From positions 124,001 to 188,000 of the forward strand of contig JACPYX010000021.1 in NCBI GenBank assembly GCA_016195815.1: 64,000 bases of DNA. The letters are read 5' to 3'. The position numbers and the translations under genes were made by a program. The stretch comes from Chloroflexota bacterium. Its GTDB lineage: Bacteria > Chloroflexota > Anaerolineae > Anaerolineales > Villigracilaceae. The notes under the pieces are model-generated. The model was not told the DNA's origin and did no database searches. It saw nothing but the letters and a program-made list of their open reading frames with translations. This document shows, piece after piece, positions 7,036 to 17,583 of the stretch (position 1 is the first letter of the stretch; the number at the start of each line of letters is the position of its first letter).

Positions 7036-7083
7036 CATTGCCCCCTTGAGGGGTTTTGTACAACAAATAGTTCGTTTATGGTA

Positions 7084-7436
7084 CCTCAGGTCGGTCTATA
7101 AGCCGCATTTTGTCCAACGGATTGCTCCGCATGGGCGATCATCTCTCTATGCAGTCTACCCGAGACTCAATGGAGCGGGCCGCTCCTTGTCTCTGCTTGA
7201 CCTTGCTCCCGGCGAGGGTTGCCTGGCCGCCCGCATTACTGCGAACGCCGGTGGTCTCTTACACCACCTTTTCACTTTGACCGCCAGTGCCCAGGGGCAC
7301 TTACGCGGCTACTGTTTTCTGTGGCCCATCCAGCAGATCACTCCGCTCCGGGCTTTCCCCGGCGCCGTGCCCTGTGGAGTGCGGACTTTCCTCGATCCCG
7401 CTTGCGCGAAACCGCGATCACCCGACCGACCTGAGG
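7084..7436 (-). ncRNA. rnpB: RNase P RNA, bacterial class A
   Basis: On the minus strand the RNA begins and ends with the two strands of helix P1 (CCTCAGGTCGGTC at 7436-7424 and GACCGACCTGAGG at 7096-7084). Between them are the family's conserved blocks in order: GAGGAAAGTCCGCACTCC, ACAGGGCACGGCGCC, GTGAAAAGGTG, GGTAGACTGCA and ACAAAATGCGGCTTATAGA. The length of about 353 nt fits class A. It is the catalytic RNA that matures tRNA 5' ends. Exact ends are set by P1 and may be off by a few bases. Confidence 0.95.
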
Positions 7437-12414: not shown

Positions 12415-14484
12415 CTATTTGCCGGCGTTTTCAGGGTGGTTATTATTTTCCAGGATTTCCTCAATCTCAAGCTGATGGCGCTCGACGCTTGATGTGACCA
12501 AATCCCAAAGTTCCAGGTATTTACTATATTCTGGGATGGCGCTTCTCAAGTCGCGCATTTTTTCCAGTTTTTTCTCGCCATAATTGCTTAGTTCAAATCG
12601 GCGGTCGAATCGGAACACGAGATGGCTGCCCTTTTCATCTTCTGGTTTATCTTCTCTCTTGAGAAGTTCGATCTTGCGCGCATAGGAGATCAGGCCCATC
12701 TGTTCATATTTGCGAATCTCGCGATAAAACGATGGCGTGATTTCGCTGTCGTCCAGGTGAATATGCCCGCGAATGTGAACATCCTCTTTCTGAAGGTCGT
12801 TGTAAATCAGGCGGGCGATTTTGTAGATACTTTGCCTGGTTGGATTGCCCGGATCCTTTGCCTTGTCCAGTTTTTCCCGGACTTTCTTGATCGCCTCCAT
12901 GACCAATAATAAAAAGTCGGGGGCAAGTATTTCGTTTTCGTCCGCGCTTTCCTTGCAAATGCTTCGATAGCGGCGTATGGCAAGATAAGCGAGAAGTTTT
13001 TTGATCGGCTCTTGATCGAGATGTTCCAGATACTCGTCAATCTGTTCGCTTTGCTCCGGGATCGTCTGGACCTGTTTTTCTATTCGAGCTTTAAACTCCC
13101 GGACGTTTTGTTCGGTCTCAAGAAAATCACCGTTTCCATAGATGACGATTTCAAGATTCTTGATCGATTCCTCCGAAATACCGCGCAGGATTTCATTGCG
13201 CAGCAGGTTGCCTCCGTCTACCTTCATTTCAAAATCCGGGGATTTCACCCGGTTGATGTGGATGAAGAGCTTCTCCTTTTTAGTGGCTTTCCTCAGTCCC
13301 TTTTGGAGCTCCGGGATGTGGTGTTGATGTTCGGAGACGACCTGGATTGCCTCCCGAATGTAGGGATGGGTGTCCCAATAATCGAGGCGTCCGATTTCCT
13401 TGAGGGGATATTCAGTGGTCAGGATTTCCTTGATTTCTTTGTCTTTGCTCTTCTTCAAATAATCTATCAGCCTGGCGTCTTCCCAGGTGGTAAATATCTC
13501 AAATATTTTCTGGGCCCGATTCTCCTCTTTAGGAAGAATGGTATTAAGCAATTCCACCACTTTGGCGGTCGTAAAGACATCCCACATGTTTTGATGAACT
13601 TCAGTGATCAGGAAATATCTCGCCAGAATAACGGTATTGACGAATTTAATGGCGTCAGGCAACAGCGTTAATTCCCAGTTCTTGATAACAATCCGATCTC
13701 GCAGGGAATTGACCTCCAGCCGGTAGGGCAGCCCGCAGTAGTAATTATCGCGCGCAAGATAATCCAATTTATCGGCGTCCACATCCCCGCTCATCACGCC
13801 CTTGAATATCTTGCTCAATCGCCCGTAATCATCGCTTACTTCTCTGGATGTCACTTCCTCTCCGATTGCGAGTTTGGCGATGACATTCTTGATGAAAGCC
13901 TCTTTTTGGTCGTCCTCCATCTTCATCGGACCCTTGTCTGTTGTCTCGATCCAATCTTTGAGCACCCTTTTGACCTCCGGGTCTGTGCAAATGATATAGT
14001 CTGTGAAGTCTTCATGCTGGCTGGGCTTGCCGTAATTCTTTCCGCGCGACTCCATGAATTTTTTGAAATCAACTGGCAGGTCTTCTTTTACATCTCCCCA
14101 TATTTCGGGATAATAGGTGAAAAGGTTTTCCATCGCATGAGAAAAAGGCGGATGCCCGATGTCATGCAAAAGAGCCGCCAGCCGCAGAAGTTGACGCTGC
14201 TTGGCCTCCAGGCGAGGGCCGGGCATCTCTCTGACCGCTTTTAGCAACTGGTCGGTCGCGTGCATCACGCCAACACTGTGTTCGAATCGGCTGTGAACCG
14301 CGCCCGGAAATGCAAGATAGGCAAAACTCAATTGCTTGATGCCGCGTAATCTGGTGAATGCTTCCGTCTGGATGATTCTTTTTTCCACCTCCGTAATTCC
14401 AATATCCCCCCAGATGGGATCACGGATACTCCTTGCCCATTCCAGCCTGGGCAGCCGCGGAAGGTACGATTTTTCTTCTGTCAT
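12415..14484 (-). CDS. HD-domain phosphohydrolase (SAMHD1/dNTPase-like)
   Basis: A 689-residue protein. The N-terminal half is an HD phosphohydrolase of the dGTPase/SAMHD1 type: H64-x-R-x-x-H69 in HSRFEHS, H107-D108 in LLHDIGHPPFSH, and the family block GDVDADKLDYLARDNYYCG. The C-terminal 330 residues are charged and helical; their last 90 (FYREIRKYEQMGLIS...) look like a winged helix. Likely activities are dNTP triphosphohydrolysis or a related nucleotide phosphatase; substrate unknown. The start at 14484 follows a good GGAGG site. A 14-bp palindrome lies just upstream. Confidence 0.8.
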   Translation of the reverse strand: MTEEKSYLPRLPRLEWARSIRDPIWGDIGITEVEKRIIQTEAFTRLRGIKQLSFAYLAFPGAVHSRFEHSVGVMHATDQLLKAVREMPGPRLEAKQRQLLRLAALLHDIGHPPFSHAMENLFTYYPEIWGDVKEDLPVDFKKFMESRGKNYGKPSQHEDFTDYIICTDPEVKRVLKDWIETTDKGPMKMEDDQKEAFIKNVIAKLAIGEEVTSREVSDDYGRLSKIFKGVMSGDVDADKLDYLARDNYYCGLPYRLEVNSLRDRIVIKNWELTLLPDAIKFVNTVILARYFLITEVHQNMWDVFTTAKVVELLNTILPKEENRAQKIFEIFTTWEDARLIDYLKKSKDKEIKEILTTEYPLKEIGRLDYWDTHPYIREAIQVVSEHQHHIPELQKGLRKATKKEKLFIHINRVKSPDFEMKVDGGNLLRNEILRGISEESIKNLEIVIYGNGDFLETEQNVREFKARIEKQVQTIPEQSEQIDEYLEHLDQEPIKKLLAYLAIRRYRSICKESADENEILAPDFLLLVMEAIKKVREKLDKAKDPGNPTRQSIYKIARLIYNDLQKEDVHIRGHIHLDDSEITPSFYREIRKYEQMGLISYARKIELLKREDKPEDEKGSHLVFRFDRRFELSNYGEKKLEKMRDLRSAIPEYSKYLELWDLVTSSVERHQLEIEEILENNNHPENAGK

Positions 14485-14500
14485 TTTGCCTCCATAATCT

Positions 14501-14514
14501 TGCCGCATGCGGCA
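14501..14514. promoter_or_regulatory. Perfect 14-bp palindrome upstream of the HD phosphohydrolase gene
   Basis: TGCCGCATGCGGCA is self-complementary and lies 17 bases upstream of the ATG at 14484, overlapping where a promoter or untranslated leader would be. It could be an operator for a dimeric repressor, but no regulator or second site was found. Confidence 0.3.
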
Positions 14515-14734
14515 TATTGCCCTAATACTAAACATTGTAGGCATTTGACAGGGTCATTTAAAGTGACAAACTACCCGATTTTGTCACAGTCATGGACTTC
14601 ATTTGAGCGCGTTGCAATTGATGGGTGCGGCAAAGCAGAAACTTTACCGGCAAGCCCCATTCTTGTTAAGGTTCTTTTAACTCCAAGCTCAAAGCTGTTC
14701 GCAAAACAAATTTCTAAATTGTTTGTCTCACCTC

Positions 14735-14764
14735 TTGACGGATACGGTTTTACGGGAGTATAGT
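14735..14764 (+). promoter_or_regulatory. Sigma-70-type promoter for the metal-transport leader
   Basis: TTGACG (14735-14740), an 18-base spacer and TATAGT (14759-14764) form a near-consensus promoter. Transcription would start near 14771, giving a leader of about 264 nt before the PRC/MgtE-N gene. Apart from this promoter and the palindrome at 14501, I see nothing between 14485 and 14734. Confidence 0.7.
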
Positions 14765-14818
14765 GCAATCGTTACTATGAATACATTCCCCGTACCAGAA
14801 GGAAAGGAGGTGATCGCT

Positions 14819-14947
14819 TTGGACGCCGATGACCATTTATTGCGCCCAACGTTGTTCCGTTTTAACTTCTCCGATTCGCGACTGTTTCAGATGCGAGCGA
14901 ACTGCGCCCAAACGCGCGGTCGCCTCAATGCTTTCTGCGCGGCTTGA
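14819..14947 (+). CDS. Putative leader peptide ORF, 42 codons
   Basis: A short ORF from TTG 14819 (or in frame from ATG 14777) to TGA 14945. Its ribosome site is a perfect 12-base match to the 16S 3' end at ideal spacing, far stronger than needed for a chance ORF. The peptide begins MDADDH and ends LNAFCAA; no family is recognised. Position between a promoter and a terminator ahead of a metal transporter suggests a regulatory leader peptide, as for mgtL or corL, but that is inference. Confidence 0.4.
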   Translation: MDADDHLLRPTLFRFNFSDSRLFQMRANCAQTRGRLNAFCAA

Positions 14948-14983
14948 TCCAATCAGCCGGCCTGTTGTCACCTGAGCCTGTCG

Positions 14984-15017
14984 CCACCTTCGGAGAAACG
15001 AAGGTGGTTTTTATTTT
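14984..15017 (+). terminator. Intrinsic terminator inside the leader
   Basis: CCACCTTCG and CGAAGGTGG form a perfect 9-bp stem with a GAGAAA loop followed by TTTTTATTTT. It lies 18 bases before the start codon of the next gene, the position of a transcription attenuator. Confidence 0.85.
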
Positions 15018-15034
15018 CTATTAGGAGGTGGTTC

Positions 15035-16300
15035 ATGGCTTTCATCAGCGAATTGACCGGCCGCCCGGTCACAGATTTTGACGGCACCCAGATCGGGGTC
15101 CTGAAAGATCTCGTAGCTCGTTCATCCAAAGATTTTACGCACCCCATCGTGGATGCAATTATTGTGCGCGGCAAACAGGGAGATCGCACCGTCCCATATG
15201 CCGACCTGGCCGCGCTGCTTTCAGCGGCCATCCCGCTCAAGCGTCCGGCATCCACGATCCCCGCTTACGAATTTCGCGAGAACGATATCCGTCTCGTCGA
15301 AGATGTGTTGGATAAACAGATCCTCGATACCGATGGTGCGCGCGTGGTGCGCGTCAATGACATTGAACTGGTGCGCGTCAATGGCGATGTGGTCGTCAGC
15401 AACGTTGACATTGGCATGCTTGGTATTCTGCGCCGGCTCGGACTCGAAAAACTCGGGCATTGGACAGCCAGGCGCTTCAAAACGGACCCGACAGTGGGTG
15501 CCATTTCGTGGGAGTTCGTCGAACCTCTCATCCATGACAAATCCATGCGCTTGAAAGTCCCCGTGGAAAAACTGGCTGAACTGCATCCATCTGACATTGC
15601 CGAGATCATCTCCGATCTCAGCCGCGCCGAACATAGAGAACTGCTCAATAAATTGGATCTGAAGCAATTGGCCGAGACTCTTGAAGAGGTCGAACCTGAT
15701 TTCCAGGCCGACCTGCTGGAACATTTTTCCGATGAGAAAGTGGCTGACGTTCTGGAAGAAATGTCACCGGACGAGGCCGCAGATTTGCTGAACGAGCTTT
15801 CGCCGGAGCGCAGTCAGGGATTGCTCAAACTCATGGAAACGGAAGAAGCAGATGAGGTCCGTGAATTGCTGCGGTACGAGGAAGACACCGCCGGCGGTTT
15901 GATGACAACCGAATACGTCACCGTCCTGCCGGGCATGAATGCCGCGCAGACCATCGAACATCTCCGCAAAGTCGGCGAGGATGCGGAGTTGGTTTATTAC
16001 GTTTACGTAACCGACCCTGAAGATCATTTGGTTGGCGTTTTCTCGCTGAGTGATTTGATCGTGGCGCAGCCTGAAACTCCCATCGCTGAATTTATGCACA
16101 AAAGAATTGTCAGCGTGGAATTGGATACCGAGCAGGATGAGATCGCGCAGATCGTTGCCAAATATAACCTGATCGCTGTTCCGGTCGTGGACGCCGAAAA
16201 TAAAATGCACGGCATCGTCACCGCTGATGACGCGCTGGATAAAATTTTGCCGACGGCCTGGAAGAAACGCCTGCCGCACTTCTTTGGAGCGCACGAATGA
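15035..16300 (+). CDS. PRC-barrel / MgtE N-domain / CBS-pair protein (cytosolic regulator of metal transport)
   Basis: A 421-residue soluble protein. Residues 1-170 hold two PRC-barrel-like segments. Residues 175-275 are an MgtE N-terminal superhelix (LHPSDIAEIISDLS, DLLEHFSDEKVADVLEEM, SPDEAADLLNEL). A CBS pair from about residue 280 to 405 begins GGLMTTEYVTV. This is the Mg2+-sensing cytoplasmic part of an MgtE channel without its membrane domain. The next gene overlaps by 4 bases and encodes an NRAMP-like transporter, so this protein probably gates that transporter by sensing Mg2+ or another divalent ion. The ribosome site is AGGAGGTGG. Confidence 0.85.
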   Translation: MAFISELTGRPVTDFDGTQIGVLKDLVARSSKDFTHPIVDAIIVRGKQGDRTVPYADLAALLSAAIPLKRPASTIPAYEFRENDIRLVEDVLDKQILDTDGARVVRVNDIELVRVNGDVVVSNVDIGMLGILRRLGLEKLGHWTARRFKTDPTVGAISWEFVEPLIHDKSMRLKVPVEKLAELHPSDIAEIISDLSRAEHRELLNKLDLKQLAETLEEVEPDFQADLLEHFSDEKVADVLEEMSPDEAADLLNELSPERSQGLLKLMETEEADEVRELLRYEEDTAGGLMTTEYVTVLPGMNAAQTIEHLRKVGEDAELVYYVYVTDPEDHLVGVFSLSDLIVAQPETPIAEFMHKRIVSVELDTEQDEIAQIVAKYNLIAVPVVDAENKMHGIVTADDALDKILPTAWKKRLPHFFGAHE

Positions 16301-17583
16301 TGGGGAAATTTCTGCGCCTTCGCGACCGTTGGACAGCCAATCGTTGGTTGGGGCGGGTGCTTGTGTTTTTGTCGGTCTTTGGCCCGGCCACCATCACCGC
16401 CATGGCCGATAATGACGCCAGCGGCGTTGCGACCTATTCCATTGCCGGAGCGTTGCTCGGCTATCCCGTTTTATTTTTACTCACAATCATCACAGTGTTG
16501 CTTGGCATAACGCAGGAAATGGGCATGCGTCTGACGCTCGTCACACGCCGCGGCCTGGCCGATTTGATCCGCGAGAAATTCGGCGTCAAAGTTTCGTTGT
16601 TTATTTTCATTGGACTGCTCCTTGCGAATCTTGGCACGATTGTGGTTGACCTCGCGGCGGTTAATACCACCAGCGAGATGCTTGGTATTCCCACGATTCC
16701 GTTTTTGTTGGGGGTGTTGCTTCTGACTTTCGTGTTTATCACCTGGGGCAATTACAAATTGACTCAGAACATTATGTTGGCTGTTTGTTTGTTCTATTTT
16801 GCCTACATATTCTCAGCTGTCAAGGCAAAACCAGATTGGGGCCTGGCCCTGAGTAATCTGATTTTCCCCAACGGCGTAACCTGGACGGGCAAGTATATCG
16901 TCAATTACCTTGTGGTCGGCATGGGCGTGCTGGGAACTACGATTACGCCCTGGGGCCAGTTCTTCATCAGCAGTTTTGCCTTCGACAAGAAGATGGATGA
17001 GAATACGATCAAATATTCCCAATTTGAAACGTATTGGGGCGCGTTTCTGACAAATTTCTTCTCGTTCTTCATGATTGTGGCGACCGCCGCCACATTGTAT
17101 GTTCGCGGCATTCAGTTAAATTCAGGCGACCAGGCCGCCCTGGCAATCAAACCATTTGCGGGCGCGCTTGCCAGTTCTTTGTTTGCATACGGCATCCTGG
17201 CGGCAGGCTTTATGGGCATCGTCATAGTTTCCTTGTCAACGGCTTATGCCTTCTCGGAATTTTTCGGTCTCTCCGGCAGTTTGGATACCGACTTTAGAAA
17301 AAGCAGAACCTTCTATACTTTGTTCCTCGCCCAATTGCTGATCTCGGCTTTGATTCTGTTGATTCCCGGCGCTTCGTTGTTCAACCTGGCTATCGCCTCG
17401 CAGGTATTGAATGCCATGATCCTGCCGCTTGTTTTCTTTTATCTTATTCGGTTGACGAGCAGTAAAAACTTGATGGGTGGGCATGTCAATAACCGTTTTC
17501 AAAAATACTTTACTTCCGCCGCATCGGTGTTTATTGTCATCGCCTCGGCGTTTACGGTAGCTGCGGTGGTTTTCCGCTGGTAG
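16297..17583 (+). CDS. NRAMP-related divalent metal transporter
   Basis: A 428-residue polytopic protein with about 11 membrane helices. Helix 1 contains FGPATITAMADNDASGVATYS, which corresponds to the NRAMP metal-site region, but the canonical DPGN is replaced by DNDASG. The helix-6 region (SLFAYGILAAGFMGI) lacks the usual A-x-x-MPH. NRAMP-related proteins with altered sites are known to carry Mg2+ or Mn2+, so the altered site and the MgtE-N partner together favour Mg2+/Mn2+ uptake; this is inference. It is coupled to the upstream gene through an ATGA overlap and is followed by a terminator. Confidence 0.85.
   Translation: MMGKFLRLRDRWTANRWLGRVLVFLSVFGPATITAMADNDASGVATYSIAGALLGYPVLFLLTIITVLLGITQEMGMRLTLVTRRGLADLIREKFGVKVSLFIFIGLLLANLGTIVVDLAAVNTTSEMLGIPTIPFLLGVLLLTFVFITWGNYKLTQNIMLAVCLFYFAYIFSAVKAKPDWGLALSNLIFPNGVTWTGKYIVNYLVVGMGVLGTTITPWGQFFISSFAFDKKMDENTIKYSQFETYWGAFLTNFFSFFMIVATAATLYVRGIQLNSGDQAALAIKPFAGALASSLFAYGILAAGFMGIVIVSLSTAYAFSEFFGLSGSLDTDFRKSRTFYTLFLAQLLISALILLIPGASLFNLAIASQVLNAMILPLVFFYLIRLTSSKNLMGGHVNNRFQKYFTSAASVFIVIASAFTVAAVVFRW

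Follow-up and report, generated by a model that had tools for sequence, protein, structure and literature searches.

A candidate Mg2+-responsive, translation-coupled attenuator with an acidic leader peptide ahead of magnesium-transport genes in Chloroflexota

What controls the mgtE_N-NRAMP gene pair of a Villigracilaceae member of the Chloroflexota, and to which metal does that control respond? The pair lies in the 64-kb window studied here (the whole stretch of DNA that was analysed, 64,000 nt). A sequence-only reading of this DNA had proposed that these metal-transport genes are preceded by an attenuator of no known riboswitch family, made of a promoter, a Shine-Dalgarno (SD) sequence, a 42-codon ORF, an intrinsic terminator and a ribosome-binding site (RBS). 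Our scans, the sequence itself and the conservation of the leader in relatives agree with that layout, which is as follows.

12415-14544, minus strand: divergent HD-domain gene, upstream of the leader
14735-14764, plus strand: sigma70-like promoter (TTGACG, 18-nt spacer, TATAGT), from a consensus scan
14803-14815, plus strand: extended SD of the leader ORF, AAAGGAGGTGATC, from the sequence and the core alignment
14819-14947, plus strand: leader ORF (uORF), from TTG at 14819 to TGA at 14947, 42 codons, with (M)DADD at its start
14822-14833, plus strand: acidic codons 2-5, Asp-Ala-Asp-Asp, the proposed Mg2+-sensitive step, a role suggested by MgtL and MgtQ
14866-14883, plus strand: predicted antiterminator 5' half, CTTCTCCGATTCGCGACT, within the leader ORF, from the cognate pairing test and the sliding scan
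14980-14997, plus strand: predicted antiterminator 3' half, which is the terminator 5' arm and loop, GTCGCCACCTTCGGAGAA, from the pairing tests
14983-15018, plus strand: predicted intrinsic terminator, stem-loop 14983-15008 and T-rich tail 15009-15018
15023-15031, plus strand: RBS of the first gene, AGGAGGTGG, with the ATG at 15035
15035-16300, plus strand: first gene, an MgtE_N and CBS protein without the MgtE channel domain (Pfam)
16297-17583, plus strand: second gene, a transporter of the NRAMP family, Mg2+ (NRMT) type (Pfam)

In the scan, TTTTATTTTC stands directly 3' of the terminator hairpin 14983-15008. Promoter-type matches in the surrounding 6-kb region number 9 versus 5.0 expected (sd 1.9), and terminator-type matches 9 versus 7.6 expected; since such matches taken alone are near chance, it is conservation in relatives that places the window leader above it. 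The extended SD columns are among the best conserved of the core alignment, and the pattern AGGAGG-N5-9-DTG-GAN-NNN-GAN has a single occurrence in the whole 3.16-Mb genome, which is the window leader. The whole leader folds somewhat better than its shuffles (z -2.2; 4 of 200 equal it). A covariance-model hit to a known riboswitch would have identified the element; neither the scan of the window nor that of 14500-15200 matched the leader to any Rfam model, whether at gathering score or at E <= 5, and this holds for the M-box (RF00380), for yybP-ykoY and for all other families, as the sequence-only reading had claimed for the first two. The sole match in the window is an ordinary RNase P RNA of bacterial class A at 7083-7433 on the minus strand (214 bits).

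The match of the first protein to the NCBIfam mgtE model is limited to the cytosolic part and falls below the cut-off. The closest solved relative of the second is the Mg2+ transporter EleNRMT (7qia, E 1e-58; the next is at 4.5e-22), and its DASG and TTIT fit DxxG-TxxA/T, given as the binding motif of NRMTs in PMC8806188, which places the window NRAMP in this group. A gene for a two-CBS protein (Pfam) lies 3' of the NRAMP gene. Operons of an MgtE_N-like gene with nrmT, some of them under an M-box, are described by Shin et al. (PMC4072509).

Relatives were collected by a protein search with the first-gene product in 150 genomes of the family, so that loci were chosen independently of the leader. 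Among the best 30 matches (L001 and L003-L031), four (L020, L027, L030 and L031) have too little upstream sequence, and all 26 usable mgtE_N loci have a short ORF of this type, led by an SD, ahead of the gene. Searching DNA with the leader itself brought in copies before mgtE (L035, L038 and L041 by NCBIfam, L050 by eye), before a corA-like gene (L037; 106.8 bits, under the NCBIfam cut-off of 200.75), before an mgtA-like gene that is a Mg-ATPase fragment at a contig end (L045) and before a further mgtE_N copy (L048). A class-wide search with the sequence model R1 matched 43 of 396 genomes at E <= 0.01; from the 30 loci inspected, L131 (before an mgtA-like ORF, by eye), L133, L136 and L151 (start ATA, before an mgtE_N-like ORF) were counted as new leaders, and the weak matches look like chance. 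A pattern scan of GTDB genomes gave 74 matches, of which 23 were read as leaders, 20 in Chloroflexota, two in Clostridia and one in Coriobacteriia. Of 33 leader loci, 8 have a promoter of the window type 82-87 nt 5' of the uORF; the rule applied passes over L004 and L005, which look the same by eye.

Several of these loci are unusual. The start-codon position is TCG in L041 and ATA in L151; both keep the Asp-Ala-Asp codons, and despite the non-start triplets L041 keeps its terminator and L151 its M-box. ABC permease genes (MacB/FtsX-like or NitT/TauT-like, by eye) lie behind the same leader at L125, L136 and L133, with an M-box at L125 and L133 and none at L136; an mgtE match follows L133 at a distance of about 3 kb in that genome, and these three are possible Mg2+-linked ABC systems. 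At L137 and L148, SD-led short acidic ORFs (MDEDGT... and MDDDNDD...) stand before thrS-like and asnS-like genes, with T-box-like sequence (by eye) 5' of each; an Rfam scan of L148 gave no match.

Alignment in relatives, which had been proposed as a check of the 42-codon peptide, shows its first codons and the terminator to be conserved and the rest of the peptide not: the uORFs are 28-54 aa long, conservation is confined to about the first five residues and the remainder varies. The hallmark is a start of the form [M/V/L]-D-A-D. Counting 35 leaders (the 33 aligned ones, L131 and L133), codon 2 is Asp in 32 and Ser or Asn in three, codon 3 is Ala in 32 and codon 4 is Asp in 34; the start codons are GTG (20), ATG (10), TTG (4) and the single TCG of L041. 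Acidic residues occupy codon 2 as well as codon 4 in 31 of the 35; among SD-preceded ORFs of the Chloroflexota loci this is so for 1 of 67 long ones and 4 of 80 short ones. Past codon 8 the acidic content is 6.2%. Codon 3 Ala uses all four of its codons (GCT 12, GCC 8, GCG 7, GCA 5). This silent variation at conserved codons argues for selection on amino acids 2-4, and thus, as far as comparison of the sequences can tell, the peptide start is under codon-level selection. The conserved SD and start, together with the synonymous variation at codons 2-4, point to a short, probably translated reading frame that lies upstream of the gene and has an SD of its own, as expected of an attenuator.

Between the uORF stop and the gene, the scan finds a terminator in 32 of 33 leaders, three hairpins having later been corrected by hand; under a stricter rule (dG <= -12, 5 T of 8) it is present in 30 of 33, versus 5 of 198 dinucleotide shuffles. 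The scan had chosen wrong, larger hairpins in L009, L017 and L029, and the terminators of these and of L016 were set by hand for the pairing and folding tests; L016 was left out of the shuffle test on antiterminator pairing. A segment of the leader's own ORF is complementary to the terminator 5' arm and loop, and the pairing sequences vary by lineage: the window's group has TTCTCCGAA with TTCGGAGAA, other lineages have GCGAAAG with CTTTCGC or CTGGCGAA with TTCGCCA. This pairing is modestly better than in dinucleotide-shuffled leaders (mean z -1.1 over 32 leaders; 9 of 200 for the window). Such shuffling is a weak test for an antiterminator and a non-cognate control was therefore used, with the leaders grouped by eye into eight clusters. 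The mean pairing energy is -18.48 kcal/mol with the cognate ORF versus -12.15 kcal/mol with ORFs of other clusters, the cognate beats the non-cognate mean in 35 of 35 leaders, and with eight representatives none of 5000 random assignments and none of 5000 derangements reaches the observed cognate value. In the window, the pairing of 14866-14883 with 14980-14997 reaches -19.4 kcal/mol, which 0 of 23 non-cognate uORFs equal. In a sliding 30-nt scan the cognate advantage peaks at +34 to +64 in eight of eight clusters (-5.8 to -8.3) and is about zero on average over the SD and the distal ORF end, where single clusters vary; one cluster has a second cognate site at +82 to +124.

Two alternative folds had been suggested for this leader, with the downstream RBS as the other partner of the terminator arm. 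The second fold is supported, and its partner has changed: pairing with the RBS is possible in the window (CCACCT with AGGTGG) and is not conserved, since the RBS of L006 and L007 is AAAGGAGTACC or AAAGGAGTACCT, without AGGTGG. On the pairing tests, the predicted alternative partner is the uORF itself (14866-14883), not the RBS. Pairing of the arm with the leader's own SD was also rejected, as the sliding scan gives no cognate signal there. A covariation check had been suggested too, and in the 12 closest leaders, an underpowered set, it is not significant (two-sided changes in two pairs; 109 of 500 shuffles score as high).

How would a ribosome on the uORF shift the balance between the two structures? 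In our folding calculations, with the ribosome edge at +26 the antiterminator exceeds P 0.5 ahead of synthesis of the terminator 3' arm in 31 of 35 leaders, and with the uORF covered to +75 the terminator exceeds P 0.5 in 35 of 35. The antiterminator is hardly formed at L013, L017, L022 and L025. The predicted structures are thus mutually exclusive and the antiterminator overlaps the ORF, as in attenuators; the weak spot is the equilibrium, where the antiterminator is favoured in just 19 of 35 leaders (17 when judged by energy) and neither structure prevails in the window (P 0.58 antiterminator, 0.48 terminator).

Mg2+ or Mn2+ had been named as the signal, and our results speak for the former. 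An M-box (RF00380, 91-147 bits) lies 5' of the leader in 22 of the 36 Chloroflexota leader loci scanned, with duplicate records counted once, the window being one of the 14 without and L029 and L048 lying outside the scan; it is present in 18 of the 25 scanned among the 26 protein-selected loci. The downstream genes are mostly known Mg2+ importers, the exceptions being the ABC permeases of L125, L133 and L136. Because of the M-box tandems, the occurrence of the leader before mgtE, corA-like and mgtA-like genes and the Mg2+ (NRMT) type of the NRAMP, Mg2+ is most likely the signal, and Mn2+ was set aside as the less likely signal on the same three grounds. According to Shin et al. (PMC4072509), one NrmT without an M-box seems to carry Mn2+. 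The same source states that M-boxes lower expression as Mg2+ rises, so a leader stacked behind one should share this polarity.

The closest known counterpart is mgtL of E. coli and Salmonella. In E. coli MgtL, the early Glu2 and Asp4 lead to ribosome drop-off at low Mg2+, which turns mgtA on (PMC11282234, PMC11552253). Like the leader described here, mgtL is a short ORF before a Mg2+ transporter gene with acidic codons 2 and 4, and its logic, in which full translation represses and early stopping induces according to these two sources, is the one that we propose. The acidic first codons are shared (31 of 35 at codons 2 and 4); the interleaved prolines of the EPDP motif are not, codon 3 being Ala and no proline being conserved in Chloroflexota, and an intrinsic terminator stands in place of the Rho-dependent one, besides which Rho may still play a part. 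The antiterminator within the ORF, the gene families and the phyla also differ. In Salmonella MgtQ, Asp2 and Glu5 cut uORF translation and raise mgtB expression at low Mg2+ (PMC8092293); Asp2 is shared with our leader, whereas mgtQ acts on mgtB translation through the RBS and the fold of our leader points to transcription termination.

We propose that the leader is a Mg2+-responsive, translation-coupled transcription attenuator that is released by ribosome drop-off or pausing at the acidic start, a reading to which we give a probability of roughly 0.65. Three elements of it are inferred: termination of transcription at the leader, Mg2+ as the signal, and the acidic start as the step that responds to Mg2+. 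Transcription would start near 14771, as judged from the promoter, and the strong extended SD would load ribosomes onto the 42-codon ORF. With ample Mg2+, ribosomes would pass D-A-D-D and cover 14866-14883, the antiterminator would not form, and the terminator 14983-15018 would stop transcription (OFF). At low Mg2+, ribosomes carrying the acidic nascent chain would drop off or pause at about codons 2-6, the freed antiterminator half would pair with the terminator 5' arm and loop, and RNA polymerase would enter the Mg2+-uptake operon (ON). The antiterminator begins at about what we take to be the front edge of a ribosome on codons 4-6, given the footprint length that we assume. This position, and acidic residues at the codons where MgtL has them, make antitermination masked by translation the most likely mechanism. 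Sensing is probably done by the translating ribosome and its acidic nascent chain; a folded RNA aptamer is the less likely sensor.

A sensor made of RNA would dispense with the nascent chain: leader, antiterminator and terminator would respond to Mg2+ through their own folding, and the ORF would merely set the ribosome load. There is precedent for this in E. coli mgtA, where Mg2+-dependent RNA folding alone was reported to modulate Rho termination (PMC11552253), and the fold of the window leader is strong (z -2.2). We nevertheless consider this unlikely, given the selection on codons 2-4 with silent changes, the lack of a conserved aptamer-like fold in the Rfam search and the drift of the pairing partners between lineages.

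Somewhat less probable still is that the switch works as proposed with another Mg2+-controlled step, namely pausing in place of drop-off, or a -1 slip into early stops. A stop in the -1 frame lies inside codons 3-6 in 31 of 35 leaders, versus 16.1 expected from synonymous resampling, and AGT accounts for 26 of the 33 Ser codons at positions 2-7, versus 172 of the 1691 in the long ORFs at these loci and 13 of the 113 elsewhere in the uORFs. However, the preference for AGT alone could create the stops, four leaders (L016, L017, L041 and L050) have none, and no slippery heptamer was seen by eye.

The same anatomy would also serve a tRNA-charging attenuator, in which a shortage of Asp-tRNA stalls ribosomes at the two or three early Asp codons that most Chloroflexota leaders have, exposing the same antiterminator. 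Amino-acid leader-peptide attenuators, such as that of the ilvB uORF, do share the uORF, the antiterminator and the intrinsic terminator with our leader (PMC11109978), but respond to charged tRNA through runs of cognate codons, while here the acidic codons are at the very start and the genes are Mg2+ transporters. An Asp attenuator would have a run of its codons before an Asp-related gene; we find transporter genes, M-boxes in tandem, and Glu for Asp at codon 2 in some Clostridia (LEGNEGS, MEGNPGD, MESGNSG, MEAGSNG), an exchange that argues for charge rather than for one tRNA, and we regard this explanation as improbable. That the small peptide works as a product, for instance on the transporter, beside a separate constitutive attenuator is hardly credible, even though the authors of PMC12810186 propose a peptide role for the conserved uORF controlled by an M-box in M. 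tuberculosis, because here about the first five residues are conserved, the rest and the length vary, and the middle serves as antiterminator.

The reading that we favour, attenuation released by ribosome drop-off or pausing at the acidic start, is built from parts and a logic of known kinds; what appears to be new is how they are wired, which genes they precede and how widely they occur among taxa. The M-box also lies before Mg2+ transporter genes, including mgtE_N-nrmT operons (PMC4072509), but it is an RNA aptamer, absent from the window, and our leader has no aptamer match. In M. tuberculosis, rv1805A is likewise a conserved small ORF behind an M-box at Mg2+-linked genes; it has a conserved Pro7 and Rho dependence, and the passages of PMC12810186 drawn on here mention no acidic start, whereas our leader has an acidic start and an intrinsic terminator. 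Tandem attenuators with different signals are described for Salmonella mgtCBR (PMC3641672), and the 'mgtE motif' of PMC11109978 is presented there as a riboswitch candidate of Thioalkalivibrio. Magnesium is not mentioned in PMC8632094 or PMC2965389, and among the matches listed in a search of open-licence papers there were no acidic leader peptides before Mg2+ transporters outside enterobacteria. If the proposal is true, it explains the control of mgtE_N-NRMT, mgtE, corA-like and mgtA genes that have no M-box, and it stacks two Mg2+ sensors of different chemistry on one transcript where they do. The leader would then help to recognise Mg2+-specific transporters, as a second marker beside the M-box, which served this purpose for NrmT (PMC4072509), and the Chloroflexota switch, with its ORF start, antiterminator and terminator, would be simple enough for tests by point mutation.

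Is this confined to Chloroflexota? The GTDB pattern scan returned Clostridia leaders before mgtE (L055 and L115) and a Coriobacteriaceae leader before a Mg-ATPase gene (L088). The chances seem to us about even that Mg2+ sensing by the ribosome through an acidic nascent N-terminus is a general bacterial device rather than an enterobacterial oddity, in the following joint form: leaders of the type M-D-x-D or M-D-x-x-(D/G)-(S/G)-S would stand, in Chloroflexota, Bacillota and Coriobacteriia alike, before operons of the mgtE, mgtA, corA-like and NRMT kinds; those of Chloroflexota and Bacillota would be wired to intrinsic terminators, with the antiterminator just past a ribosome on codons 4-6; and those of Chloroflexota would often follow an M-box, so that one mRNA has two independent Mg2+ gauges. 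The AGT codons and the early stops in the -1 frame may take part in the sensing itself. If so, the ribosome's own need for Mg2+ serves as a gauge in at least three phyla.

In Coriobacteriia, mgtA is preceded at 24 of 30 loci by an ORF that has an SD and carries Asp or Glu somewhere in codons 2-5, and at 7 of 30 the acidic residue is at codon 2, as read by eye with no matched control. In a Bacillota sample of 149 genomes (the best 29 new loci, 28 usable), codon 2 is Asp or Glu in the best-SD ORF of 11 of 28 loci and in a lower-ranked ORF of two more (L234 and L243). The starts MDPDSC, MDPDLC and MDADPG resemble the EPDP of MgtL, some of these leaders thus having MDPD, with a proline between acidic residues; MDYVV is unconvincing.

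From 100 genomes of the Clostridia family, 30 loci (the seed among them, 29 usable) were read by eye with no matched control: a leader was read in 22 of the 29, codon 2 is Asp or Glu in 21 of these 22, and the starts include MDASGSN, MDAGGSG, LDSSDGR, LDNGDSS and LEGNEGS. Many of these leaders have one early acidic residue, which is weak for destabilisation. M-boxes were found in 2 of 20 Clostridia loci. A terminator was not found in 9 of the 22 leaders, and those of L170, L172 and L185 were set by hand. In the 13 leaders with a terminator, the cognate pairing averages -14.72 versus -12.43, which is better than chance (11 of 5000 derangements reach the cognate value), and the signal is weaker than in Chloroflexota; the best pairing site begins at +46 to +50 in 9 of the 13. 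At L055, L115, L168, L169, L171 and L174 the mgtE RBS lies inside the terminator 3' arm, 6-8 nt before the start codon, and therefore in these leaders the hairpin could also block translation.
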